The translations under genes were made by a program, and so were the position numbers. A DNA stretch of 64,000 nt from Streptomyces sp. I6 (GTDB taxonomy: Bacteria > Actinomycetota > Actinomycetes > Streptomycetales > Streptomycetaceae): contig RHDP01000001.1 in assembly GCA_003725745.1 (NCBI GenBank), positions 1,519,501 through 1,583,500 of the forward strand, given 5' to 3'. Under the pieces are notes generated by a model. The model was not told where the DNA came from, made no database searches, and saw nothing but the letters and a program-made list of their open reading frames with translations. Position 1 is the first letter of the stretch. Every line of letters begins with the position of its first letter. Positions 4,957-50,727 of this stretch are shown here, piece by piece.

Positions 4957-6579
4957 TCAGTGGTGGCCGTGGCCGCTCGTGATCTCCTTGTACTCCTCGA
5001 CGGTCGGCTTGGCGACCTGGTTGTCCCGGCCGTAGTACGCCTTGCTGAGGCGCGCCCGGAGCCGCTCGGTGCGCGACACCTTCCGCTCCACGCCGTTCTC
5101 GTCGACCGTCGGGCCGACCTCGGCCGGGGTGTACTGGTAGTGGGAGGTGAGCGTGTGCAGGGCCTCCTGCGTCAGCGGCTCGTGGACCTCGACGAACTCA
5201 CCGTGCGGCAGGCGCTTGATGATGCCGGACTCGCGTCCGTGCAGCACCTTGTCCTTGTCGCGCCGCTGCAGACCCATGCAGATCCGCTTGGTGATGATGA
5301 AGGCCAGGACCGGTCCGGCGAAGAAGAAGATCCGGACGAACCAGGTGATGGCGTTGATGGACAGGTGGAAGTGGGTCGCCCAGAGGTCGTTTCCGCCGCC
5401 GACCAGCAGGACGAAGTACCACGTCAGCCAGGCCACACCGAAGGCGGTGCGGGTCGGGGCGTTGCGCGGGCGGTCCAGGACGTGGTGCTCGCGCTTGTCC
5501 CCGGTGACCCAGGACTCGATGAACGGGTACACCGCGATCGACGCCAGCACCAGCGGGAAGATCACCAGCGGGATGAAGACTCCCAGGACCAGGGTGTGGC
5601 CCCACAGGTTGATCTCCCAGCCCGGCATGACGCGGATCAGGCCCTCGGAGAAGCCCATGTACCAGTCGGGCTGCGCGTTGGTCGACACCTGGTCCGGCCG
5701 GTACGGGCCGAGCGCCCAGATCGGGTTGATCGTGGCGATCGCCGAGATGACCGTGATGATGCCGAAGACCAGGAAGAAGAAGCCGCCCGCCTTCGCCATG
5801 TAGATCGGCAGCAGCGGCATGCCGACGACGTTCTTGTTGGTCCGGCCGGGACCCGCGAACTGCGTGTGCTTGTGGTAGAAGACCAGGATCAGGTGCGCCA
5901 CGAGCAGGCCGAGCATGATGCCCGGCAGCAGCAGGATGTGGATCGAGTAGAACCGGGCCACGATGTCGCCGCCGGGGAACTCCCCGCCGAACAGGAACAT
6001 CGACAGGTACGTGCCGACGACCGGCACGGACAGGATCGCGCCCTGCATGAAGCGGACACCGGTGCCGGAGAGCAGGTCGTCCGGGAGCGAGTAGCCGGTG
6101 AATCCGGTGAACATGCCGAGGACGAACAGCAGGAACCCGAACAGCCAGTTGATCTCGCGCGGCTTGCGGAACGCGCCCGTGAAGAAGACGCGCATCATGT
6201 GGACCATCATGGCCGCGAGGAAGATCAGCGCCGCCCAGTGGTGGATCTGCCGGATCAGCAGACCGCCGCGGACGTCGAAGCTGATGTCCAGGGTCGAGGC
6301 GTAGGCCTCCGACATCAGCACGCCCTGCATCGGGACGTAACTGCCGTGGTACTCCACCTCGTTCATCGACGGGTGGAAGAACAGCGTCAGATACACACCC
6401 GTGAGGATGATGATGATGAAGCTGTAGAGCGCGACCTCGCCCAGCATGAAGGACCAGTGGTCCGGGAAGATCTTGCGCATGTTGGCCTTGGCGAGGGAGT
6501 AGATCCCCAGCCGGCCGTCGGCCCAGTCGGCGACGCGCTCGCCGGCCGGAGCCTTCCGCTTGTCGTTCGCAGTGCTCAT
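4957..6579 (-). CDS. qcrB: cytochrome bc1 complex cytochrome b subunit
   Basis: 540-residue membrane subunit of the menaquinol:cytochrome c reductase. It carries two b-type hemes; the first His-rich helix reads IHHWAALIFLAAMMVHMMR near residue 110, and the second heme-ligand helix follows near RFYSIHILLLPG. Eight or more membrane segments are evident. The C-terminal extension of about 110 residues past the last helix (from RICMGLQRRDKDKVL on) is characteristic of actinobacteria and contacts the oxidase in the supercomplex. The ATG start overlaps the qcrA stop (ATGA). This is the target class of QcrB inhibitors such as telacebec in mycobacteria. Confidence 0.96.
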   Translation of the reverse strand: MSTANDKRKAPAGERVADWADGRLGIYSLAKANMRKIFPDHWSFMLGEVALYSFIIIILTGVYLTLFFHPSMNEVEYHGSYVPMQGVLMSEAYASTLDISFDVRGGLLIRQIHHWAALIFLAAMMVHMMRVFFTGAFRKPREINWLFGFLLFVLGMFTGFTGYSLPDDLLSGTGVRFMQGAILSVPVVGTYLSMFLFGGEFPGGDIVARFYSIHILLLPGIMLGLLVAHLILVFYHKHTQFAGPGRTNKNVVGMPLLPIYMAKAGGFFFLVFGIITVISAIATINPIWALGPYRPDQVSTNAQPDWYMGFSEGLIRVMPGWEINLWGHTLVLGVFIPLVIFPLVLASIAVYPFIESWVTGDKREHHVLDRPRNAPTRTAFGVAWLTWYFVLLVGGGNDLWATHFHLSINAITWFVRIFFFAGPVLAFIITKRICMGLQRRDKDKVLHGRESGIIKRLPHGEFVEVHEPLTQEALHTLTSHYQYTPAEVGPTVDENGVERKVSRTERLRARLSKAYYGRDNQVAKPTVEEYKEITSGHGHH

Positions 6580-7625
6580 CCGCGCTCCCAGAAAGCAGGA
6601 CCGACGGGCTCGTCGAAGTCGCCGAGCGCCTCGAGGAATCCTTCGTCATTCACGCCGATCCGCAGCTGCGGAAGGGCGTGGCCGGCCGGGCCGAAGATGA
6701 CGCGGGCGCCGTCGGAGAGGTCGAAGGTGGACTGGTGGCACGGGCACAGCACGTGGTGCGTCTGCTGCTCGTACAGGGAGATCGGGCAGCCCACATGGGT
6801 GCAGATCTTGGAGAAGGCGACGATGCCCTCGTGCGACCACTCGAGCTCGCGCTTGTCCTTGATGTCCTCCGGCTGGATCCGGACGATCATCAGGGCGGCC
6901 TTGGCGATCTCGGTCTGGAAGCTGTGGTCGTGCTCGCTGAGGCCCTCGGGCATGGCGAAGGTCAGCGAGCCCACGGAGACGTCCTCGGGGCGCAGCGGCT
7001 CGTTGGTGTTCATGTTGATGAGCTGCTTGCCCCTGGCCCACAGCGTGTGGCGGAGCTTGTCCTCCGGCAGCGGGCCGAGGTCGCGCAGCAGCATCACGCC
7101 GGACAGCGGCACCATGGCGAGCGCGCCGAAGAGGGTGTTGCGGATCAGCTTGCGCCGGCCGAAGCCGGACTCCTCGGCACCCGCGGCGAAGTCGGCCATC
7201 ACCTTGGCCTTGACCTCGGGCGGGGCCTCGATCGGGTGGCGCTCGTCCACCCGCTCCTCGTCGGACATCAGGGTGCGGGCCCAGTGGACCGCGCCCGCGC
7301 CGATGCAGAACAGGGCCAGACCGAGGGTCGTGCCCAGCGCGAAGTTCAGCGCGCTGACGTGACCGAACGGCCAGATGTAGACGATCTTGTCGACCGGGAA
7401 GATGACGTACGACGCGATGAACGCGACCGTCGACAGCATCGACACGGTGAACAGCAGGGCGACCGTACGCTCGGACCGCTTGGCGGCCCGCTCGTCGATG
7501 TCCTGGACCCGCGGCCGGTGGGCCGGGAGGCCCGGGTCGGCGAAGGGGTCCTTCACCGCCACGGCGCCGTGCGCGTGGTCCTGCTCGGAGGACAGGGACT
7601 CTTCGGGAATGTCTTGGCTACTCAT
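6576..7625 (-). CDS. qcrA: cytochrome bc1 complex Rieske iron-sulfur subunit
   Basis: 349-residue Rieske protein. The [2Fe-2S] ligands are C275, H277, C294 and H297 in CTHVGC and CPCH; C280 and C296 should form the stabilising disulfide. As in other actinobacteria it is much longer than the mitochondrial protein. Three hydrophobic helices occur in the N-terminal half (around residues 55-80, 92-115 and 160-185) instead of one; the third helix is preceded by GRRKLIRN, a twin-arginine-free region. Start and stop overlap its neighbours by ATGA, giving a tightly coupled qcrC-qcrA-qcrB unit. Confidence 0.96.
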   Translation of the reverse strand: MSSQDIPEESLSSEQDHAHGAVAVKDPFADPGLPAHRPRVQDIDERAAKRSERTVALLFTVSMLSTVAFIASYVIFPVDKIVYIWPFGHVSALNFALGTTLGLALFCIGAGAVHWARTLMSDEERVDERHPIEAPPEVKAKVMADFAAGAEESGFGRRKLIRNTLFGALAMVPLSGVMLLRDLGPLPEDKLRHTLWARGKQLINMNTNEPLRPEDVSVGSLTFAMPEGLSEHDHSFQTEIAKAALMIVRIQPEDIKDKRELEWSHEGIVAFSKICTHVGCPISLYEQQTHHVLCPCHQSTFDLSDGARVIFGPAGHALPQLRIGVNDEGFLEALGDFDEPVGPAFWERG

Positions 7626-19827: not shown

Positions 19828-20134
19828 CTGCTTCTCTCCCGGGTTGTACGGAGACTGCTTGCCGACGTTGGCAACCGGCTGGGCTCCGGATTCATTCCGG
19901 ACCGGCCCTGGTCTTTCCCTTTCATGCTCGCACATGCCCTCCCTCCGGGTCATCGACCGGTGGACGGCTCGGCACCGGGAATTGCGTCACATCGACACTA
20001 TGGACATCGTCAAAGTGACGTGAAGCGGTTATGATAGATAGTGTCAAATAGACGAAAAGGCTCTCCGGTGCACCCCGGTGGGCCACCGGACGCGGCTCCG
20101 CCGCCCCGATCGAAGAGTAGAAAGGGTGCGTGAC
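19828..20134. promoter_or_regulatory. erpA-nadA divergent promoter region with inverted repeats
   Basis: 307 bases between two start codons. Nested inverted repeats are visible: GACACTAT (19,994-20,001) pairs with ATAGTGTC (20,038-20,045), and CGTCAC (19,985-19,990) with GTGACG (20,015-20,020). A TATGAT at 20,030-20,035 looks like a -10 element toward nadA. The AT-rich 20,025-20,060 patch is unusual for this DNA. An operator for an NAD-biosynthesis or redox regulator is plausible but unproven. Confidence 0.45.
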
Positions 20135-21344
20135 GTGACCACCGCCCAGCCCTCCCTCACTGCGCCGGACGCAGCGGGAGGCTCCCAGGATGTCCAGCCG
20201 ACGCCGCTCGCCCTGCTGCTGCTCGGCCGCGAGGCCGACCCCAGGAGCGAGCGGGGCGTCGAGTGCCCCGGTGACCTTCCCTCCCGTCCGACCCGGACCT
20301 GGTGGAGCGTGCCCGTGCGGCGAAGGAGAAGCTCGGCGACAAGGTGTTCGTGCTCGGTCACCACTACCAGCGCGACGAGGTCATCCAGTTCGCGGACGTC
20401 ACCGGCGACTCCTTCAAGCTCGCGAGGGACGCGGCTGCCCGGCCGGAGGCCGAATACATCGTCTTCTGCGGTGTGCACTTCATGGCCGAGTCGGCGGACA
20501 TCCTCACCGGCGACGACCAGAAGGTCGTCCTCCCCGACCTCGCCGCCGGCTGCTCGATGGCCGACATGGCCACGGCCGAGCAGGTCGCGGAGTGCTGGGA
20601 CGTCCTCACCGAAGCGGGCGTCGCGGAGCGGACGGTGCCCGTCTCGTACATGAACTCCTCCGCGGACATCAAGGCGTTCACCGGCAAGCACGGCGGCACC
20701 ATCTGTACGTCGTCGAACGCCAGGCGGGCGCTGGACTGGGCCTTCGAGCAGGGCGAGAAGGTCCTTTTCCTGCCCGACCAGCACCTCGGCCGGAACACGG
20801 CGGTCCGCGACATGGGCATGTCCCTGGACGACTGCGTCGTCTACAACCCGCACAGGCCGAACGGCGGACTCACCGCCGAGCAGCTGCGCGACGCGAAGAT
20901 GATCCTGTGGCGCGGCCACTGCTCGGTGCACGGCCGCTTCTCGCTGGATTCCGTCAACGACGTCCGCGAGCGCATCCCGGGTGTGAACGTCCTGGTCCAC
21001 CCCGAGTGCAAGCACGAGGTCGTCGCCGCGGCGGACTACGTGGGCTCCACGGAGTACATCATCAAGACGCTGGAGGCCGCCCCGCCGGCTCCGCGTGGGC
21101 GATCGGCACGGAGCTGAACCTGGTACGCCGCCTGGCGAACCGTTTCGCCTCGGAGGGCAAGGAGATCGTCTTCCTCGACAAGACGGTCTGCTTCTGCTCG
21201 ACGATGAACCGGATCGACCTGCCGCACCTGGTGTGGGCGCTGGAGTCCCTCGCGGAGGGGAACCTGGTCAACCGGATCCGGGTCGACTCCGAGACGGAGA
21301 GCTTCGCCAAGCTGGCCCTGGAGCGCATGCTGGCGCTTCCCTGA
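20135..21344 (+). pseudogene. nadA: quinolinate synthase A, two frameshifts
   Basis: NadA condenses iminoaspartate with dihydroxyacetone phosphate to quinolinate using a [4Fe-4S] cluster. About 403 residues after repair. GTG 20135 has AAAGGG upstream and begins MTTAQPSLTAPDAAGG. The frame shifts near 20,276-20,290 and again near 21,080-21,090 (CCCCGCCGG, where CCCCGGCCGG is expected). The central frame has GHHYQRDEVIQFADVTGDSF, FCGVHFMAESADIL, DLAAGCSMADMA and WRGHCSVHGRFS. The last frame has KTVCFCSTMNRIDLP, with cluster cysteines. All conserved residues are present, only split over three phases. De novo NAD synthesis depends on it. Confidence 0.9.
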
Positions 21345-34219: not shown

Positions 34220-35014
34220 GTGAGCTCCCACAACCCACCCGGCCTCGCGGGCATACGATTCGCCTTCGGCACCCTCACCGTGCTGCCCGTGCGCGTGACC
34301 CGCTGGGACCGCGACACCGCGCGCGCGGGGATGCGCTGGGCCCCGCTCGCCGGACTCGCCGTCGGCCTCTGCGCGGGGGCCGCGGGCGGACTGCTCCTGC
34401 TGCTGGGCGCCGGTCCGCTGTTCGCCGCCGTCGCCTCCGCCGCCGTGCCCGCGGCCCTCACCCGCGGCCTGCACCTGGACGGCCTCGCCGACACCGCCGA
34501 CGGACTGGGCAGCGGCAGACCCGCCGAGGACGCGTTGCGGATCATGAAGCAGTCGGACATCGGGCCGTTCGGGGTCACCACCCTGGTGTTCGTCCTGCTG
34601 GCCCAGGTCGCGGCGCTGTACGAGCTCTACGGCCGCGGCTGGGAGTACGGGGTGACGGCGGCGGCCGCCGCCGGTGCCGCCGCCCGGCTCGCGCTCACGC
34701 TCGCCGCCCGCACCGCCGTCCCGGCCGCACGGCCCGAGGGGCTGGGCGCCATGGTCGCCGCCACCGTGCCGGCGCGGCAGGCGCTGGGCATCGCGCTGCT
34801 GGTCACGACCGGTTTCGCCGCCTGGGGGACGCTGTTCGGCGGGTACGGGGCGCCGCGGCTCGCTCTGGCCGTGCTCGCCGGGGCCGCCGCCGCCGAACTG
34901 CTGCTGCGGCACTGCGTGCGCCGCTTCGGCGGGGTCACGGGCGATGTGTTCGGAGGGGTCGCGGAAACGGCGGCGACGGCGGCGCTGATCGCGCTCGCCG
35001 TCGGGTTCCGGTAG
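34220..35014 (+). CDS. cobS: adenosylcobinamide-GDP ribazoletransferase
   Basis: 264-residue integral membrane cobalamin synthase, joining adenosylcobinamide-GDP to alpha-ribazole as the last assembly step. The signature HLDGLADTADGLGSGRPAED (about residues 91-110) with acidic Mg-binding residues, and LRIMKQSDIGPFGVTTLV, are diagnostic. Six to seven hydrophobic helices. It completes the cobU-cobT-cobS set, separated from the other two by two membrane genes. Confidence 0.95.
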   Translation: MSSHNPPGLAGIRFAFGTLTVLPVRVTRWDRDTARAGMRWAPLAGLAVGLCAGAAGGLLLLLGAGPLFAAVASAAVPAALTRGLHLDGLADTADGLGSGRPAEDALRIMKQSDIGPFGVTTLVFVLLAQVAALYELYGRGWEYGVTAAAAAGAAARLALTLAARTAVPAARPEGLGAMVAATVPARQALGIALLVTTGFAAWGTLFGGYGAPRLALAVLAGAAAAELLLRHCVRRFGGVTGDVFGGVAETAATAALIALAVGFR

Positions 35015-35165: not shown

Positions 35166-35223
35166 CGCCGGCGTCAGCAGGGCCTGCGCCAGGCGTCCAG
35201 CTCGTAGCGCTTCCGCATCGAAC

Positions 35224-35976
35224 TCAGCCCGAGCCGCCGCGACTGGGGCAGAAGCGGCTTGTCGGCAGCTCGTACTCGACGTGGAACACGGCCTTGCCCG
35301 CCTCGACGAACGGTGTCAGCGCCTCGCACTCCGCGTACTGGGCGCACTGCTCGTTGACCGCGAAGTCGAAGTCGCCGACGAGGGCCGGGATCTGGTCGAG
35401 GTCGTTCTTCAGCCCGACGGACAGCCCTCGCTCACGGGCCATCCGGGCGATCAGCCGGTTGTAGCGGAGCTGGTCGTCCGCGGTGAGGGGGAAACCGGTG
35501 TCGTTGGCGTAGCCGTCCATGTTGTCGGGCTCGATCGCGTCGAAGCCCTTGTCCCGGCACATGTCGAAGCGCCTGGCCATCAGCGGCTCCAGGACGTCCG
35601 TGCGGCGGATGTCGAGCCAGCGCTCCCCCTCCCAGCCGTTGCCCTTGCCCAGCAGCTCCGCGGGGAACTCGTCCGCGTCGGGGCGGAACTCCTCCCAGGC
35701 GCCGGTGGACAGGTAGCAGATCACCTTGCGGCCGCGCCGCTGGAGGTCGGCGACCGTGGACCCCGGGTGCTCGAAGCCGTCGATGTCGTACACCGGGACG
35801 TCCACGGTCGGGTCCAGGCGGCCGCTGAGCTGCCACTGCCACGGCGTCCCCGGCCCCGGCCGCCAGCGGGTGGTGCGCGGGGGCGCGGAGTCGTCGGGGG
35901 CCGAGGTGCAGCCGGCCAGCAGCACCAGGGCCACCAGCGGCAGCAGCAGGCTTCGTGTCCGGGCCGGCAGTCTCAT
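35224..35976 (-). CDS. GH114-like endo-alpha-1,4-polygalactosaminidase lipoprotein
   Basis: 250 residues. A lipoprotein signal (LLLPLVALVLLAGCTSAP) anchors it outside the cell. The TIM-barrel pattern of GH114 is clear: PVYDIDGFEH, KVICYLSTGAWEEFRPD, GFDAIEPDNMDGYAND with likely catalytic acids, and DFDFAVNEQCAQYAECE. Family members (fungal Ega3; the hydrolase domain of PelA) cut alpha-1,4-linked galactosamine polymers. ATG 35976 follows the membrane-protein stop by 13 bases, with AGGGAG. Placement last in the polysaccharide operon suggests trimming or release of its product. Confidence 0.88.
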   Translation of the reverse strand: MRLPARTRSLLLPLVALVLLAGCTSAPDDSAPPRTTRWRPGPGTPWQWQLSGRLDPTVDVPVYDIDGFEHPGSTVADLQRRGRKVICYLSTGAWEEFRPDADEFPAELLGKGNGWEGERWLDIRRTDVLEPLMARRFDMCRDKGFDAIEPDNMDGYANDTGFPLTADDQLRYNRLIARMARERGLSVGLKNDLDQIPALVGDFDFAVNEQCAQYAECEALTPFVEAGKAVFHVEYELPTSRFCPSRGGSG

Positions 35977-35989
35977 GTCCGGGACTCCC

Positions 35990-37408
35990 TCAGCGATGTG
36001 CGGTGATCCGGCCCAGCTGAGCACAGACCAGCAGGACGAGCACTCCGGACGCGGCCGCCGGAGCGAACAGCGGTCCCGAGCCGGGCAGCAGCAGCGGGAC
36101 CAGCGCGGCCAGGCAGCACACCACGGCCGGGCTCAGCACCGCCCCGAACGCCTGGAGCAGCAGTCCGGTCCACAGCACCGCCCCGAGCAGCAGTGCGCCG
36201 GCCGTCGTGGCCGTGTCGGGGCGGTCGGCCCCGACGGGCCACAGCAGCAGGGCCGCGGCCATGAGCGCCGGCAGGACGGCCAGGTATCCGGCGAGGGAAC
36301 GCAGCAGCGCCGCGGCGACCGCGATCCGGAAGGCGCGCGGGGAGGTGCAGGCCCGCAGTCCGGCGAGGCTGTCCGCGCGGAACCGGTGGAGCAGCCACTC
36401 CGCCGGCCCCATGCCCAGGGTGAGGGCGACCGCGAACGGCGGAGTCTCCAGGGCGACATGGAGCACCAGCACTCCGGAGCCCAACCCGAACAGCCCGTAC
36501 GGGACCGAACCTCCGAGCCCGCTCGGCGCCGCGCGCCGGCCCCCGATCCGGCACCGGCCGCCGTGGCCCGCCGGCCGGAGCATCCCGGCGACCGCGCCCG
36601 CCGCGAGGCCCGTGGCGGCCGTGACGGACGCCACGGGGAGCACCAGGTGCGCCCAGCCGGGCATCGGGTGCAGCGCCGCGTACAGCGCCCCGCCCACCAG
36701 CGGCAGCAGGGCCGGCAGCAGGACCCGCTCCCGGCCGAGGACCAGCAGCACCGTCGCCGCGGCGAGGTAGAGCGACTGGCCCGCGGCGAACAGCAGCGCC
36801 GGGCCGTGATCGGGGGCGGCGGGCGCGACGGCCGCGGCGGCGGCCGTGCCGAGCACCACCCCCACCGGTGCGCCCCTCAGCAGGGCCCGGGCCGCCGCGG
36901 GGCGGTCGCCGAGCCCGAGCCAGGTGTACGCGCGGTGGGCGAGGGCCTGGTTCCAGGCCCAGCCGGCCAGCGCGGCCGCCAGCAGCGGGGCGTGGGCGGT
37001 GCTGCCGCCCGCGAGGACGGGCGCCGCCAGGACGTGGCCCAGCGCCGGGAGGGTGAACAGCAGGCCCCGCAGCAGGCAGCCGAGGAGCGCCGGGCTCCCC
37101 GGGCCGGGCGGCGGGTCGCCGGCGTGGGGGAAGCGCCGTTCGACGCGCGCGTACAGGTCCTCCGCCAGGGCGAACGAGTCCTCGTGTCCGTAGCGCCGGC
37201 GTATCTGCTCGTCCGTCAGCCCGTCGGACTCCAGTAGCGCCGCCACCTCGTCGGGGTGGACGGCCGCCGCCACGAAGTCGTCCAGCCGTCCGGCCAGTTC
37301 GCCGACCGGGTCGGCTCCCGCCCGGCCCGACGGGCCCCGCTCCGGCGTCGGCGGCAGGGCGTCCCGCACGTCCGTGCCCGGATCCTTCAGCCACGGCGAG
37401 CCGCTCAC
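35990..37408 (-). CDS. polytopic membrane protein of exopolysaccharide locus
   Basis: 472 residues, family not recognised. A soluble N-terminal part of about 100 residues (DEVAALLESDGLTDEQIRRR, then DSFALAEDLYARVERRFP) precedes ten to twelve hydrophobic segments through to LFAPAAASGVLVLLVCAQLG. Size and topology resemble a flippase such as PelG, but I see no clear sequence signature. The GTG start overlaps the glycosyltransferase stop (GTGA), so synthesis is coupled to it. Export or assembly of the polymer is the natural inference. Shorter start choices further in cannot be excluded. Confidence 0.75.
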   Translation of the reverse strand: MSGSPWLKDPGTDVRDALPPTPERGPSGRAGADPVGELAGRLDDFVAAAVHPDEVAALLESDGLTDEQIRRRYGHEDSFALAEDLYARVERRFPHAGDPPPGPGSPALLGCLLRGLLFTLPALGHVLAAPVLAGGSTAHAPLLAAALAGWAWNQALAHRAYTWLGLGDRPAAARALLRGAPVGVVLGTAAAAAVAPAAPDHGPALLFAAGQSLYLAAATVLLVLGRERVLLPALLPLVGGALYAALHPMPGWAHLVLPVASVTAATGLAAGAVAGMLRPAGHGGRCRIGGRRAAPSGLGGSVPYGLFGLGSGVLVLHVALETPPFAVALTLGMGPAEWLLHRFRADSLAGLRACTSPRAFRIAVAAALLRSLAGYLAVLPALMAAALLLWPVGADRPDTATTAGALLLGAVLWTGLLLQAFGAVLSPAVVCCLAALVPLLLPGSGPLFAPAAASGVLVLLVCAQLGRITAHR

Positions 37409-39027
37409 CGGACGCCCCCGTGGACGGCCCCGTGGACGGCCTCGGAGAGCCCAGAGGATCCTGAGGGTCCTGAGGGTCCTGAGGGTCCTGAGGGTTCGGA
37501 CCAGTGGTGCCCCCAGGCCGTGTGCTCCTGGTACCAGGGGTCCCTCAGTTCGAGCGTCCAGTCGGCGACCGTCTCGACGGCGGGCGGGTCGTACACCGCG
37601 CCCGGCGTCCCGGCGAGTTCCCGGTAGATCTGCCGGAAGGCGTCCACCGAACGCCGCAGGGTGAAGAGGTCGACGACCCGCTGCCGGGCGCGGCGGCCCA
37701 GTTCGGCGCGGCGCGCGTCGTCCCGGAGCAGTTCCAGGGCTGCGGCCGCCAGCGCCTCGGGCTCGCGCGGCGGGACCACCAGACCGGTGTCGCCGACGGC
37801 CTCGCGCACCCCGCCCACATCGGTGGAGACCGTGGTCCGCCCGCAGGACATCGCCTCGATGATCGAGAACGGGAAGCCCTCGCTGATGCTGGAGAGCATC
37901 ACCACGTGGCCGGCTGCGTAGGCGCGTGCCACGTCGTCGACCCGTCCCTCCCAGGACACCCCGTCGGCGACGCCCAGTTCGGCGGTGAGCTTCTCCAGCG
38001 CGGTGGCGTACCACCCGCACCCGGCCGGGGCGGCGCCGAACAGCCTCAGCCGCAGCGCCGGAAGCTCGGCGCGGGCCAGGGCGAAGGCCCGGACCAGCGT
38101 CTCCAGGTCCTTGATCGGGTCGATCCGGCCGGCCCAGCTGAGGGTGGGCTCGGGCGGTTCGGCCCCGGCGTGCGGGAAGGCGTGCGGGTCGACGCCGTTG
38201 TAGACCGTGCGGATCTTGCCCGGGACCGCGCCGCCGCGCTCCTCCCAGCGGCGGTTGTATCGGTTGCACGGGGTGATCAGATCGGCGCGTTCGTAGCCGA
38301 GGGTGTTGAGCTCCCGGTAGAAGCCGAGCATCAGCGCCTTGACCGGCCAGCGCTGCGCCTCGGTGCGGTAGCCGAGGTAGCGCTCGCGCAGATAGATGCC
38401 GTGCTCGGTGAGGAGGAACGGCACCCCGTCCGACCGCTGCGCGGCGAGTGCGGGCAGAGTGGCCAGCCCGCTGCTGACGGCGTGGGCGACGCCGTCCCCG
38501 GGGATGCGCACCGCCAGCGGGCGCAGCGCGTGTTCGAGCAGGTCGACGGCGGTCAGGGCGTCGTGGACGGTGGGTCCGGCGGCGGCGGTGGGCAGCGACG
38601 GCCGGGTCCACAGGCGCATCAGGGTGCGGACCGCGGTCTCGGTCCGCAGCGCGGCGGTGAGACGGCCCGCGCGCGCCTCGTCGGCCAGCTCGTCGAGCGC
38701 GGGGCCGAAGTCCGCGCGCGCGTCCGGGTCAAGCAGCGACAGCAGGAACCGCTCGAAGGTGTGAAGGAAGCGCCGGCGGACGGCAGCGCGGCGGGGGGCG
38801 TGCTGCCGTCCGGGCCGCGGTCCCCACAGGGGCACGGGGGTGTGGCCGCGGACGTTCGGCGGCAGCTCCCAGGCGACGGGCTCACGTCCGCTGCCGGTGA
38901 GGGAGACGACGGTGAAGGCGACCTCGGGCATTCCCCGGACCAGCTGGTCGCACCATGTGCTGACACCGCCGTGGACGTGCGGATAGGTGCCTTCGGTGAG
39001 CATGGTGACATGGAGTCCCTGGCTCAT
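37405..39027 (-). CDS. pelF: PelF-like GT4 family glycosyltransferase
   Basis: 540 residues, GT-B fold. The N-terminus TMLTEGTYPHVHGGVSTWCD and the inner LLTEHGIYLRERYLG are typical of PelF, the cytosolic polymerase of Pel polysaccharide that uses UDP-GalNAc/UDP-GlcNAc. The donor site has SWAGRIDPIKDLETLVRAF and the E-x7-E element in SEGFPFSIIEAMSCG. No signal peptide or membrane helix. C-terminus is a GPSGPSGPSGSSG linker. ATG 39027 has AGGAGA. Sugar specificity is inferred from family and from the GH114/CE18 partners. Confidence 0.88.
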   Translation of the reverse strand: MSQGLHVTMLTEGTYPHVHGGVSTWCDQLVRGMPEVAFTVVSLTGSGREPVAWELPPNVRGHTPVPLWGPRPGRQHAPRRAAVRRRFLHTFERFLLSLLDPDARADFGPALDELADEARAGRLTAALRTETAVRTLMRLWTRPSLPTAAAGPTVHDALTAVDLLEHALRPLAVRIPGDGVAHAVSSGLATLPALAAQRSDGVPFLLTEHGIYLRERYLGYRTEAQRWPVKALMLGFYRELNTLGYERADLITPCNRYNRRWEERGGAVPGKIRTVYNGVDPHAFPHAGAEPPEPTLSWAGRIDPIKDLETLVRAFALARAELPALRLRLFGAAPAGCGWYATALEKLTAELGVADGVSWEGRVDDVARAYAAGHVVMLSSISEGFPFSIIEAMSCGRTTVSTDVGGVREAVGDTGLVVPPREPEALAAAALELLRDDARRAELGRRARQRVVDLFTLRRSVDAFRQIYRELAGTPGAVYDPPAVETVADWTLELRDPWYQEHTAWGHHWSEPSGPSGPSGPSGSSGLSEAVHGAVHGGVR

Positions 39028-39124
39028 CGGCGTGAGTTCTCCTGGACGTACGGGTGGTGGGCGCGGAGCGCCGGGGCACGAGGTGGTGCCCCGGGCACGG
39101 CGGGTGGGCGGCGCGGGCGCCCGG

Positions 39125-39163
39125 CCGTGCGCACCCCGGCCGCGCGGGCCGGGGTGCGCACGG
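39125..39163 (-). terminator. hairpin between deacetylase and glycosyltransferase genes
   Basis: Perfect 17-bp stem CCGTGCGCACCCCGGCC / GGCCGGGGTGCGCACGG with 5-base loop, 20 bases past the deacetylase stop. It may terminate part of the transcripts, lowering expression of the glycosyltransferase, or stabilise the upstream mRNA. Confidence 0.6.
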
Positions 39164-39182
39164 AGTGACCGGGCGGCCGCGG

Positions 39183-41332
39183 TCAGGAGGGCAGTCGCAG
39201 GGTGACGGCGGACTGGAGCAGCTCCGGCTGGGTCCAGGCCGAGCGCTGCCCCGCGTAGGCGGTGCCGAAGGCGCTCGTGCCGAGCAGGAGTTGCTTGCGG
39301 GTGCCCTCGGGCGCGGTGACGGGGACGACGACCCCGCCGGGTGCCCGGACGGTGACGGTGGTGCCGATCCGGTACGCCGTGACCCGTTCGGCGTCCAGGG
39401 CCGACTGCCAGGCGGCGCGGCGGCTCAGTTCCGTGCCGGCGTCCCGGTGGCGCGGGTTGACGAGGGGCGTGTTGTCGGCGAACGTCGCCTGGTAGTCGGC
39501 GAGGATCCGGTCGAGGACGGGGTACAGGATGCGGTCCTCGGCCAGGTTGGACTGGTGGACGTAGTGCGGGCGCGGGTCGTTGGCGACGATGTGGCCGAGG
39601 GCGATCCGGGCCTCCTGCGGGACGATGTGCGTCCCGTATCCCGTGGCCACGTCGATGGGCTCGTCCAGGCAGGTGGAGGCCGGGTCGGTCTCGCAGACGC
39701 CGCTTCCGCCGTCGGCCCGCGAGGTGTAGATCCAGTTGTACTCGTCGGCCATCTCGGCCGCCGTGCCCACGTTGTAGTACACGTTCATCGGATGGCGGGG
39801 CACGGTGACGGCGCCGCCGACGGGACGCTGCTGGGGCTCGCGGGAGTTGTCGCTCGCGATCCACTTGACGCCGTTGTCGGCGAGGGCGGGCGCCAGGTTG
39901 GGGTTGTCCACCGGCTGCTGCGGAAGCGTCTTCAGCCCGAGTGCTCTCCGGTGACGAGCTCCGTGCGGTCGACCGGGAGGCCCTTGTCCACCGCCCAGTC
40001 GTGGTTGTCGCGGATCTGCGCGGAGATCTCGGCGCGGCTCATCCAGCGGGTGGCGCCCGACGGGTCCTTGGAGCACTGCCAGGGGACGACGGAGACGTCC
40101 TGGACGCAGCCGAGGAACGGGTGGCTCCAGGTGTGGTTGACCCAGCGGTACTGGGACCGGTCGGCGAGCAGCCGCGTGGTGAGGGCGTCCGTGCCGCCGT
40201 TCTCCGCCTTCCACTCCTCGGCCGCGCCCGCGTTGTAGACCATGTCGAGGGTGAGGCCGCTGGTGTCCTGCCACTGGGCGGCGTACTGCGCGTCGGCCGC
40301 GGTCATCCGGATGTCCGGGACCTGCTCGCCCGCTCCGCCGACGCAGTCGATGTCGCCGGGGGTGCAGTTGCGCTCGGTGTCCCAGCGGGCGTCGGACGCG
40401 AAGACGTCGTCCACGTGGACCGAGAAGTAGTTCCGGTTCTGGCCGAGGTGGACGCCCTGGGTGAGCCACTCGACGATACCGCGCGCCAGCAGCCGGAACT
40501 GCCGCTGGTGCTGGTTGTAGGCGAAGGTGACGACGAGCTCGCGGCGCCCGTCGTGGGCGTACTCCCCCAGAAGGCTGCCGCGGCCCTCGCCGCCCGGCAC
40601 GGGAGCGTCGACGTAGCTGGTGAAGCCCTCGCGGGGGCGGGCCAGATAGCCGTAGCTCTCGCTGATGGACGGAGCGTTGTCCTCGAAGGTCAGGGCGCCG
40701 TCGAGGTAGCCGAACGGGCCGGACCGGCCCGCGGCCGTGACCTCGGCGTCCGCGCCGTCGAGCGTGCCGGACCAGCCGCCCTCGCTGGTGTAGTCGAGCC
40801 CCACCCCCGGGTGGGCCCAGGTGTAGGCGTCGACCTGGCGGACGCCGAACCGCTGCTCGTACGCGACGAGCGCGGCCTGCTCGGCGGCCCCCGCGGACCC
40901 CTGCCCGAAGGGCGCCTCGTTCGGCAGCACCACCCCCTGGTACTTGGCACGCGGCCGGCCGGCCACGGTGTCGCTCAGGAACGCGGCGTCGATCCGCGGG
41001 CGGTCCGGGTCCGCCAGGTCGAGCAGGCGGTACGGGACGCCGGTGCCGCGCAGCTCGGAGGTGACGGCGGCGACCGCCGACCCTCCGTCGTCGACGACGA
41101 GGACCTTCAGGTCGATCCGCGGCGCCGGGTCGGCGGCCGCGGCCGGGGACGCGGGCAGCGCCGCCGCGAACAGCGCCGACGTGGTGAGCGCGACCACCGC
41201 CGTGCCCAGCCCGCCCCGCCGGCCGGTCCCCCGGCCGGGTGCTCTCCCGCCGCGGCCGCGCCGGGCCGACGCCCTCGGCGATCCGCCCGTGACCGCACCT
41301 GCGCCGGATCCCCCGGCGAATACGGATGCCAT
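39183..41332 (-). pseudogene. Agd3-like (CE18) secreted polysaccharide deacetylase, one frameshift
   Basis: About 716 residues when repaired. A long Arg-rich leader and signal segment (GLGTAVVALTTSALFAAALP) come first. A domain with LKVLVVDDGGSAVAAVTSEL and YQGVVLPNEAPFG follows. The NodB-like catalytic part has HVDDVF (H306-V-D308-D309), HTWSH (H400, H404) and TGEHSG. The frame breaks right after TGEHSG at about 39,935; one lost C in CGGGC(C)TGAAG explains it, and the rest continues GLKTLPQQPVDNPNLAPALA to the 39183 stop. Agd3 deacetylates GalNAc-containing galactosaminogalactan in Aspergillus; substrate here is inferred. Confidence 0.85.
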
Positions 41333-41656
41333 GGTGTTTCCCCCACCCCTTGTTGTTCCGCTGTTGATCCGCTGTTGATCCGCCCCCGCGAAGACGCCGG
41401 GGAGGACATGTGGAAATCGTGCAAAGCAGCCGGTCGCTCCCTTGCTTCTCCGGCCCGAGTGTGGCCGAGAGATCGGTGTTGTGGCGGGAAACCAGGCGGA
41501 GTGACCACGGATGGGTGAATCCTCGTCGGCGCGAGCGAACATCGCGGGCGCGCGTAGGCTCGTGGCGGCGCTCCGACCCGCCCGACTTACGATGCGCCGG
41601 GCGGCCGACCCACCTCTTCGGCCCAGGAAACTCAACGGAAGCGAGATTTCACCACC
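41333..41656. other. divergent region deacetylase / pepA
   Basis: 324 bases without a gene. On the left lies a direct repeat CCGCTGTTGAT (two copies, about 41,360-41,382). A minus-strand TTGCAC near 41,420 could be a -35 element for the exopolysaccharide operon. I looked for a c-di-AMP (ydaO) riboswitch, common upstream of Streptomyces wall genes, and did not find a convincing one. Confidence 0.4.
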
Positions 41657-43183
41657 GTGACTGCTCTCACTCTCAGCACTGCCGGCGCTGCGACGCTGCG
41701 CGCCGACGCGGTCGTCGTCGGCGTCGCCAAGGGCGCCAGGGGCGCGAAGGGCGCCCAGGGCCCCGTCGTCGCAGCCGGCGCAGAGGCCGTGGACGCGGCG
41801 TTCGACGGGAAGCTCGCCACGGTCCTCGAGACGCTCGGCGCCTCCGGTGCCGAGGGCGAGGTGACCAAGCTGCCCGCGCCGTCGGGCCTGAAGGCCCCGC
41901 TGGTGATCGCGGTCGGGCTCGGCGCCGCCCCGGAGAAGGACGGCGCGTACCCGGCCGAGTCGCTGCGCCGCGCCGCCGGCTCCGCGGCCCGCGCGCTGGC
42001 CGGCTCGAAGAAGGCGGCGTTCGCCCTGCCGGCCGGGACCGCCGGGGACGCCCAGGCGGTCGCGGAGGGCGCGCTGCTGGGCGCGTACTCCTTCACCGCC
42101 TACCAGGACGAGGGGAACGGCAAGAAGCCGCTGGCCGAGGTGGCCCTGCTGGGCACCAAGCCGCGCGAGAAGGCCTTCAAGGAGGCCGCCGCGCGGGCCG
42201 TCGCGGTGGCCGAGGAGATGAACCGCGCGCGCGACCTGGTCAACACGCCGCCGAACGACCTCTACCCCGAGTCGTTCGCCGCCGTCGCCACCGCCGCCGG
42301 CAAGGAGCACGGCCTCAAGGTGCAGGTCTGGGACGAGAAGGCGCTCGTCAAGGGCGGCTTCGGCGGCATCCTCGGCGTCGGCCAGGGAGCGGCCCACGGG
42401 CCGCGCCTGGTGAAGGTGGCGTACACGCACCCGGAGGCGGAGAAGTCCCTCGCCCTCGTCGGCAAGGGCATCACCTACGACTCCGGCGGCATCTCGCTCA
42501 AGCCGGCCGGCCACAACGAGACCATGAAGTGCGACATGAGCGGTGCCGCCGCCGTGTTCGCCGCCGTCGTCGCGGCGGCCCGGCTCGGTCTGCGGGTGAA
42601 CGTCACCGGCTGGCTGGCCCTGGCCGAGAACATGCCGTCCGGCACCGCCACCCGCCCCGGCGACGTGCTGCGGATGTACACCGGCAAGACGGTCGAGGTG
42701 CTCAACACCGACGCCGAGGGCCGTCTGGTGCTGGCCGACGCCATCGCCAAGGCGTCGGAGGAGAGCCCGGACGCGATCGTGGACGTGGCGACGCTGACCG
42801 GCGCGATGGTCCTGGCGCTCGGCCACCGGCGCTTCGGGATCATGTCCAACGACGACGCGTTCCGCACCGCGGTCCACGAGACCGCCGAGGAGGCGGGTGA
42901 GGACTCCTGGCCGATGCCGCTGCCCGCGGACCTGCGCAAGGGTATGGACTCGCCGACCGCCGACATCGCGAACATGGGCGACCGGATGGGCGGCGGCCTG
43001 GTCGCGGGCCTGTTCCTGAAGGAGTTCGTCGGGGAGGGCATCACCTGGGCCCACCTGGACATCGCGGGCCCGGCCTTCCACGAGGGCGCACCGTTCGGCT
43101 ACACGCCCAAGGGCGGCACCGGCTCGGCGGTCCGCACCCTGGTCAGGCTGGCCGAGCGCGCCGCCGACGGCGACCTGGGCTGA
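41657..43183 (+). CDS. pepA: leucyl aminopeptidase (M17)
   Basis: 508-residue cytosolic dimetal aminopeptidase, removing N-terminal Leu and other residues. The C-terminal catalytic domain has GITYDSGGISLKPAGHNETM (metal ligands, catalytic Lys region) and the family signature NTDAEGRLVLADA. The N-terminal domain is Ala/Gly-rich with KGARGAKGAQG. Length is normal. GTG start at 41657 with GGAAGCGAG some distance upstream. Monocistronic, ahead of lpd on the same strand. Confidence 0.95.
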   Translation: MTALTLSTAGAATLRADAVVVGVAKGARGAKGAQGPVVAAGAEAVDAAFDGKLATVLETLGASGAEGEVTKLPAPSGLKAPLVIAVGLGAAPEKDGAYPAESLRRAAGSAARALAGSKKAAFALPAGTAGDAQAVAEGALLGAYSFTAYQDEGNGKKPLAEVALLGTKPREKAFKEAAARAVAVAEEMNRARDLVNTPPNDLYPESFAAVATAAGKEHGLKVQVWDEKALVKGGFGGILGVGQGAAHGPRLVKVAYTHPEAEKSLALVGKGITYDSGGISLKPAGHNETMKCDMSGAAAVFAAVVAAARLGLRVNVTGWLALAENMPSGTATRPGDVLRMYTGKTVEVLNTDAEGRLVLADAIAKASEESPDAIVDVATLTGAMVLALGHRRFGIMSNDDAFRTAVHETAEEAGEDSWPMPLPADLRKGMDSPTADIANMGDRMGGGLVAGLFLKEFVGEGITWAHLDIAGPAFHEGAPFGYTPKGGTGSAVRTLVRLAERAADGDLG

Positions 43184-48025: not shown

Positions 48026-50727
48026 ATGACCGACCCCGTAGCCATGCTTCCGAGCGAGCTCGACCAGCTCCCGGACCGTGACACCGAGGAGACCGCCGAA
48101 TGGGCGGCCTCCCTGGACGCCGTCACCAAGGCCGCCGGCCCGCATCGCGCCGCGTACCTGATGCGCCGCACCCTCCAGCACGCCGAGGGTGTGGCAGGGC
48201 TCGAGCTGCCCAAGCTCCTGGAGACGGACTACGTCAACACCATCCCGACCGCCGCCGAGCCGCTCCCGGCCGGTGACGAGGAGATGGAGCGCCGGATCAC
48301 CGCCTGGAACCGGTGGAACGCGGCGGCCATGGTCACCCGCGGCTCCCAGCACGGCGTCGGCGGGCACATCGCCACCTTCGCCTCCGCCGCCTGGCTCTAC
48401 GAGACCGGCTTCAACCACTTCTTCCGCGGGAAGGAGGGCGGGGCAGCTCCGAGGCCGGCGACTCCGGCGACCAGCTGTACATCCAGGGCCACGCCTCCCC
48501 CGGCATCTACGCCCGGGCCTTCCTCGACGGCCGCCTCACCGAGGCGCACCTCGACAACTTCCGCCGGGAGGCCGGCGGCAGCGGCCTGCCGTCGTACCCG
48601 CACCCGCGCCGGCTGCCCTGGCTGTGGGAGTTCCCGACGGTCTCCATGGGACTGGGCCCGCTGTCGGCGATCTACCAGGCGCGCTTCAACCGCTATCTGA
48701 CCAGCCGCGGCATCAAGGACGTCTCCGCCTCGCACGTCTGGGCGTTCCTCGGCGACGGCGAGATGGACGAGCCCGAGTCGACCGCGGCGCTGGCGCTGGC
48801 CGGTCGTGAGGGCCTGGACAACCTGACCTTCGTCATCAACTGCAACCTCCAGCGCCTCGACGGCCCGGTCCGCGCCAACTTCAAGATCGTGCAGGAGCTG
48901 GAGGCCCAGTTCCGCGGCGCCGGCTGGAACGTCGTGAAGACCCTCTGGGGCAACGCCTGGGACGAGCTCCTCCAGCTCGACACCACGGGCGCCCTGGTCC
49001 GCCGGCTGCGCGAGGTCCCGGACGCGCAGGTCCAGACGTACCAGACCCGTGACGCCGCCTACATCCGCGAGGACTTCTTCGGCAAGGATCCGGCGCTCGC
49101 CGAGATGGCGAAGCTGCTGAGCGACGACAAGATCCTCGAGTGCTTCCACCTCTCGCGCGGCGGTCACGAGCCGCGCAAGGTGTACGCCGCCTACAAGGCC
49201 GCCGTGGAGTTCAAGGGCGCCCCGACGGTGATCCTGGCCCAGACGGTCAAGGGCCACACGCTCGGCGAGGGTTTCGCGTCCAAGAACGCCAACCACCAGA
49301 TGAAGAAGCTGACGGTGGACGAGTTCAAGGCGATGCGCGACCTGCTCGACCTGCCGATCAGGGACGGCGACTTCGCCGACGGCCGGGTTCCCTACGGCCA
49401 CCCCGGCGCCGACTCCCCCGAGGTCCGCTACCTCCAGGAGCGCCGCGCGGCGCTCGGCGGTCCGGCCCCGGCCCGTCGCGTCCACCCGGTCGCCCCGCTG
49501 CCCGCGCCCGCCGAGAAGGCGTTCGCCGCCTTCGACAAGGGCTCCGGCAACCAGTCGGTGGCGACGACCATGGCCTTCGTCCGCCTGGTCAAGGACCTGA
49601 TCCGCGACAAGGAGACCGGCAGGCGCTGGGTGCCGATCGTCCCGGACGAGGCCCGCACCTTCGGTATGGAGTCGCTGTTCCCCTCGCTCGGCATCTACTC
49701 GCCGAAGGGCCAGACGTACGAGCCGGTCGACCGCGACCAGCTGATGTACTACCGCGAGGCGGAGAACGGCCAGATCCTCAACGAGGGCATCACCGAGGCC
49801 GGCTCGATGGCGGACTTCATCGCCGCCGCGTCGTCGTACGCCACGCACGGCGAGACGATGATCCCCTTCTACATCTTCTACTCGATGTTCGGCTGGCAGC
49901 GCACCGCCGACCAGATGTGGCAGCTCGCCGACCAGCTCGGCAGGGGCTTCCTCGTCGGCGCCACGGCCGGCCGCACCACCCTGACCGGCGAGGGCCTGCA
50001 GCACGCGGACGGCCACTCGCCGATGATCGCGGCGACGAACCCGGCGGCGCTCACCTACGACCCGGCGTTCGCCTACGAGGTCGCGGCCATCGTCAAGGAC
50101 GGTCTGCGCCGCATGTTCGGCGAGGCCCGCCCGGACGAGGACCCGGACGTCTTCTACTACCTGACGGTCTACAACGAGCCGATGCCGCAGCCCGCGAAGC
50201 CGGAGGGCGTGGACGAGGGCATCGTCCGCGGTCTGTACCGCTTCAGGGCGGGCGAGGGCGCGGCGGACGACCCGCGCATCCAGCTCCTCGCCTCGGGCAC
50301 GGCGATCCACTGGGCGCTGGAGGCCCAGCGTCTGCTGGCCGCCGAGTGGGGCGTCACGGCGGACGTGTGGTCGGCGACGTCCTGGACCGAACTGCGGCGC
50401 GACGCGCTGGAGGCGGACGAGGCGCTGCTGCGCGGCGAGTCCCGCGTCCCGTATGTGCGCCAGGCCCTGGAGGGCGCCGAGGGCCCGGTGCTCGCGGTGA
50501 GCGACTACATGAGGCAGGTGCCGGACCAGATCGCCCAGTGGGTGGAGCAGGACTGGTCGTCGCTGGGCGCGGACGGCTTCGGCCTGTCGGACACCCGTGA
50601 GGCGGCCCGCCGCCACTTCGGTGTCGACGCGCAGTCGGTCGTGGTCGCGGCGCTGGCGCAGCTCGCCCGCCGCGGCGAGGTGCCGGCCTCCGCGGTCAAG
50701 GAAGCGCGCGAGCGCTACGGCTTCTGA
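48026..50727 (+). pseudogene. aceE: pyruvate dehydrogenase E1 (homodimeric type), one frameshift
   Basis: About 900 residues after repair. AceE decarboxylates pyruvate with thiamine diphosphate and loads E2. The 140-residue N-terminal part ([20 protein letters not shown]) is in one frame. At the G-run 48,440-48,443 the phase slips and the rest continues from [20 protein letters not shown]. The ThDP motif is split by normal spacing: [10 protein letters not shown] through NLTFVINCN. Later regions [19 protein letters not shown] and [20 protein letters not shown] are intact. ATG 48026 has GGAAGG. One lost G is the simplest explanation. Confidence 0.92.

Follow-up and report, generated by a model that had tools for sequence, protein, structure and literature searches.

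A compact locus for a probable exopolysaccharide

On the minus strand of a 64,000-nucleotide stretch of Streptomyces sp. I6 (the whole of which we call the window; contig RHDP01000001.1, positions 1,519,501 to 1,583,500), four genes lie close together that encode a predicted Agd3-like deacetylase, a PelF-type glycosyltransferase, a multi-spanning membrane protein and a GH114 lipoprotein (Table 1), with the stop of the glycosyltransferase gene overlapped by the start of the membrane protein gene. A preliminary description, made from the sequence alone, had placed these four genes side by side at 35224..41332; all four are present, and the deacetylase does start at ATG 41332, but GH114 homology continues to 35177. 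The set is also incomplete as a type, since most relatives have a fifth gene, Spherulin-4 (presumably of the Sph3, GH135, type), between the membrane protein and GH114 genes, which is absent from the window and from the corresponding locus (L024) of Streptomyces pacificus, the closest named relative. The window locus carries no extra sugar genes and no epimerase of its own. Given the GH114 score, the PelF equivalog score and the recurrence of the gene group in many genomes, the observation is more than chance.

Table 1. Genes of the locus and its two flanking genes, in window positions.
Feature	Position	Strand	Remarks
Agd3-like (CE18/CBM87-type) secreted polysaccharide deacetylase (predicted)	39183..41332	-	ATG 41332; split over two frames (39932-41332 and about 39938-39183)
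PelF-type GT4 glycosyltransferase, presumed polymerase, DUF3492 and GT4 domains	37405..39027	-	NF038011, PF11997
12-helix membrane protein, MOP fold, presumed polymer exporter in the PelG position	35990..37408	-	predicted fold
GH114 endo-alpha-1,4-galactosaminidase-type lipoprotein	35174..35976	-	ATG 35976; PF03537; C-terminus frameshifted
Divergent flanking gene, presumably pepA (leucyl aminopeptidase)	41657..43183
Convergent flanking gene, presumably cobS	34220..35014

Two of the family assignments in that description are borne out directly. The glycosyltransferase matches the NCBIfam PelF equivalog NF038011 with 164.1 bits (cut-off 100) over profile positions 2-489 of 489, and PF11997 (DUF3492) with 189.5 bits; E383 and E391, which we take to be the EX7E motif of GT4 enzymes, are invariant in an alignment of 13 sequences (A1). 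The hydrolase scores 275.7-276.5 bits against PF03537 (cut-off 27), its family profile finds Ega3 (6ojb, 5.7e-71), both the Asp nucleophile (D151) and the Glu acid/base (E209) are kept, and a lipobox (LAGC) marks it as a lipoprotein. A second class of GH114 proteins is common in the family (61 matches, mostly 150-190 bits).

The deacetylase was described as CE18/Agd3-like from its HVDD, HTWSH and TGEHSG motifs, all of which occur in the translation, and its predicted fold and catalytic residues support this. The model consists of a CBM87-like domain followed by a CE domain, folded as in Agd3, and for the S. pacificus ortholog Agd3 (6NWZ) is the top fold match and NDST1 the second; residues 599-671, where a C-terminal beta-rich third domain was looked for, are modelled at a local confidence (pLDDT) below 50. 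The catalytic residues of motifs CM1-CM4 (D263, D264, H355, H359, H548) are invariant among the 11 sequences of alignment A8, R468 is nearly so, the M666 position differs, and the catalytic motifs recur in the window pieces of the gene. The direct Pfam cut-offs (27.6 for Agd3_CE, PF25115, and CBM87_Agd3, PF25116) are, however, missed by the window pieces (12.3 and 18.0 bits) and by relatives (14.0 and 21.4 in S. pacificus, 17.9 in L005, neither profile matching L010), and the family profile finds no Agd3 among PDB sequences. The link to Agd3 thus runs only through the fold and an intermediate sequence from another actinobacterial locus (L108, below).

The membrane protein is modelled as a 12-helix MOP fold with a short N-terminal helical part, and on this predicted structure is likely an exporter. 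Weighing against this, the best Foldseek row has E 0.011, none reaches 0.001 and the TM-scores of ranks 1-9 are 0.36-0.46; the family profile has no match among PDB sequences up to E 10. The preliminary claim of no recognisable PelG holds for sequence: PF16933 finds nothing in the I6 genome (the control, Thermotoga maritima, does match), and hhalign gives no relation of the membrane protein to PelG (probability 0.2 percent, with a PelG alignment of two sequences only). It holds less well for structure, as PelG is presumably a MOP protein too. Partial PF16933 matches (positions 321-446) occur in 7 of 121 family genomes, four of them just above the cut-off. PF16963, the cyclic di-GMP receptor PelD, is matched neither in the I6 genome nor in the control genomes.

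Interrupted frames and assembly quality

Two of the four genes are broken in the window. Directly after TGEHSG the deacetylase passes from frame -1 (to 39941) to frame -3 (39938 to 39186), and the GH114 frame ends early near the C-terminus, with the C-terminal piece (35254-35177) in another frame. The other 13 sequences of alignment A3 are open across the deacetylase site, and on that ground we set aside a programmed frameshift there. It is conceivable that both shifts are true mutations and that the locus is decaying in this strain, such that no mature polymer is made; two frameshifts fall within four genes, and of the L024 proteins matching the 27-47 kb region of the window none besides these is split. 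We regard this as improbable. An audit of the window with proteins of three relatives (L024, G076, G110) as queries revealed two further genes split over frames, at 20126-21341 (three pieces) and 48026-50724, which we take to be the core-type genes nadA and aceE and which point to indel errors in the assembly. Moreover, the GH114 gene of a sister locus in the same genome is also split, assembly completeness is 87.42 percent, and in S. pacificus, whose glycosyltransferase is 91 percent identical to that of the window, both genes are undisrupted (deacetylase of 671 residues, GH114 of 267). For these reasons we take the shifts as assembly errors.

Conservation and parallel loci

Among 121 family genomes (I6 included), 97 carry GH114 and 109 carry DUF3492. 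Taking GH114 matches above 260 bits and DUF3492 matches above 170 bits as strong, and 10 kb as the neighbourhood, 47 of the 63 strong GH114 genes have a strong DUF3492 partner, as does only one of the 61 weaker ones, itself half of the split sister-locus GH114 (the other half was left out of the count). Three of the 16 strong GH114 genes that stand apart (in G015, G074 and G118) have lower-scoring DUF3492 fragments nearby. Of 64 strong DUF3492 genes, 48 have a GH114 gene in that neighbourhood, in two spacing classes (16 pairs at 2976-4036 bases, 32 at 5685-7394). We further collected the 80 best-match loci from species genomes titled Streptomyces or actinobacteria, which are close kin, and counted a gene as present where tblastn matched it anywhere in the locus stretch. 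All 63 loci with enough flank contain the deacetylase and the membrane protein, 60 Spherulin-4, 51 GH114 and 49 all five genes, while one (L085) lacks both hydrolases. Streptomyces lavendulae CCM 3239 (L076) is an example with an intact locus of all five genes. The order deacetylase-glycosyltransferase-membrane protein-Spherulin-4-GH114 is seen in 53 of the 80. Another 20 loci, from the G genomes and chosen for nearness of the glycosyltransferase and GH114, hold the membrane protein in 20 cases, the deacetylase in 16 and Spherulin-4 in 15. Co-occurrence in related genomes, on which the preliminary description had staked its proposal, is supported.

This constancy bears on the idea that the substrate is foreign, fungal galactosaminogalactan or the Pel of competitors, rather than a polymer that the strain makes itself. 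Such a role would fit the endo-galactosaminidase that Streptomyces griseus expresses and secretes (cited in PMC7229062) and the 60 of 61 weaker GH114 genes that lie away from strong DUF3492 genes. It is very improbable for the present locus, where a cytoplasmic PelF-type enzyme and a MOP-fold membrane protein are present beside the deacetylase in every one of the 63 loci and the GH114 protein is, by its lipobox, a lipoprotein.

Across the phylum the deacetylase is found in 13 of 396 genomes and the membrane protein in 17, in several only over its N-terminal 70-230 positions. Outside the genus, six of the seven genomes with a deacetylase match have a PelF-type glycosyltransferase adjoining (L104, L105, L107-L110); in the exception (L106) the glycosyltransferase and a weak membrane-protein match lie on another contig (L114).

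The I6 genome itself contains two parallel loci. A second, extended one (L004, G000:C1:326000-345500) comprises deacetylase, glycosyltransferase, membrane protein, short-chain dehydrogenase/reductase (SDR), nucleotidyltransferase, Spherulin-4-like and GH114 genes; in the relative L020 the SDR gene resembles LegB (455.1 bits against a cut-off of 475), so that the extended-locus polymer may hold an extra sugar. A third PelF-type locus (L111, G000:C1:4503000-4519000), with counterparts L112 and L113, has a GT4 enzyme, a membrane protein whose N-terminal part is that of the exporter family, Spherulin-4 (checked against Pfam in L112) and an SDR-like gene, with no deacetylase or GH114 in the stretches examined.

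These loci may form a third branch beside Pel and galactosaminogalactan systems in Streptomyces, one in which a PelF-type polymerase is paired with its own family of predicted MOP-fold exporters (with the N-terminal helical part). A genome would hold as many as three paralogous loci of this branch (a compact one, one enlarged by sugar-modifying genes and one with Spherulin-4 alone; I6 has all three), and these would make chemically different surface polymers. As the locus has neither a PelG sequence nor space for PelD or PelE, such a branch would work without the cyclic di-GMP switch of Pel. We offer this tentatively, at somewhat less than even odds.

The region upstream of the deacetylase (41333-41656) has features of its own. 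Among 77 upstream stretches, 40-45 contain 10-mers of TTGCATGATTTCCA, of which the window carries a version differing by one base; in the window and in S. pacificus, short GGATCAACAGC-like repeats lie ahead of the deacetylase start. In a scan for a BldD box and several promoter patterns, the BldD box was found in 0 of the 77 stretches and a SigE-like pattern in 18 (shuffled mean 4.7, maximum 9).

Known systems and the proposed polymer

The idea of bacterial galactosaminogalactan- or Pel-like clusters is already published and covers the core of the preliminary description: in the text available, Bamford et al. (2020; PMC7229062) report Agd3 homologs in 45 bacterial species and operons in which an Agd3 homolog likewise accompanies a cytoplasmic glycosyltransferase, a membrane protein with several spans and GH114, joined in some Actinobacteria by the Spherulin-4 that the window copy lacks. 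That text assigns the membrane protein no fold, whereas here a MOP fold is modelled. In the open literature, outside which most subscription journals fall, we found no functional study of the locus in Streptomyces; in the passages of PMC11005364 that we consulted, pel occurs solely in the title of a reference. The locus is real and ordinary for its kind, and its interest is in the exporter assignment and the parallel loci.

The Aspergillus fumigatus galactosaminogalactan cluster likewise groups an Agd3-type deacetylase, an Ega3-type GH114 and a glycosyltransferase, and relatives of the window locus share with it Spherulin-4 and SDR genes; fungal Agd3 is, however, distant (window and Streptomyces sequences fall below the Pfam cut-offs), and the compact locus has no epimerase. 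With pelDEADAFG of Bacillus cereus, a locus type also reported from actinobacteria (PMC7112168), the window locus shares a PelF-type GT4, an adjoining presumed membrane exporter and a separate deacetylase (PMC7112168, PMC13254593), but it lacks the PelG sequence family and any further gene that could be PelD or PelE, and its deacetylase is Agd3-like rather than the CE26 enzyme PelADA.

In two actinobacterial loci (L108, L109) an Agd3-type deacetylase belongs to an operon of the Pel type. They have PelF, Spherulin-4 and an Agd3-like deacetylase in common with the family (L108: PelF 506.9 bits, deacetylase 93.6 bits to PF25115), but include PelG (463.6 bits in L108, that of L109 being 87 percent identical); their upstream genes resemble PelD and PelE by position only, and no GH114 was found in the stretch examined.

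We consider the window locus probably (roughly 0.6) a compact operon for synthesis, export and modification of a partly deacetylated, alpha-1,4-linked N-acetylgalactosamine (GalNAc)-type exopolysaccharide. Gene families, key residues, order and conservation are established and the folds are predicted, whereas substrate, direction and a role in surface adhesion are inferred. The PelF-type enzyme would polymerise UDP-GalNAc in the cytoplasm, supplied by household epimerases; two GalE matches above cut-off lie elsewhere in the genome, which is no proof of such a supply. The predicted MOP-fold protein may carry the chain across the membrane in place of PelG, and the secreted Agd3-like enzyme would strip some N-acetyl groups through a metal-bound HVDD/HxxxH site, making the polymer cationic and sticky. 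The GH114 lipoprotein might then cut deacetylated stretches and so set chain length or release. Galactosamine polysaccharides are known from Streptomyces cell walls (PMC7229062).

The same machinery could serve another polymer, the GT4 enzyme making a mixed GalNAc/N-acetylglucosamine or wall-linked aminosugar chain that the Agd3-like enzyme deacetylates. A PelF from the same phylum (L108) scores far higher than the window enzyme (506.9 against 164.1 bits), NDST1 follows Agd3 among the fold matches, and the extended sister loci have SDR and nucleotidyltransferase genes, including the LegB-like one. Yet GH114 and Spherulin-4 are partner families whose characterised members cut galactosamine/GalNAc polymers (PMC12054363), and the compact locus is free of additional sugar genes; we hold this alternative possible but unlikely.

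If the GalNAc-type reading is correct, many Streptomyces would be able to make a sticky, cationic polymer of the Pel or galactosaminogalactan kind, and the locus would offer a genetic handle on the matrix, on how pellets form and on encounters with fungi. It would also allow tests, in harmless laboratory strains, of how fungal galactosaminogalactan clusters and the Pel systems of bacteria are linked in evolution, a question taken up in PMC7229062. For the transport step, the exporter fold as predicted supplies a candidate.
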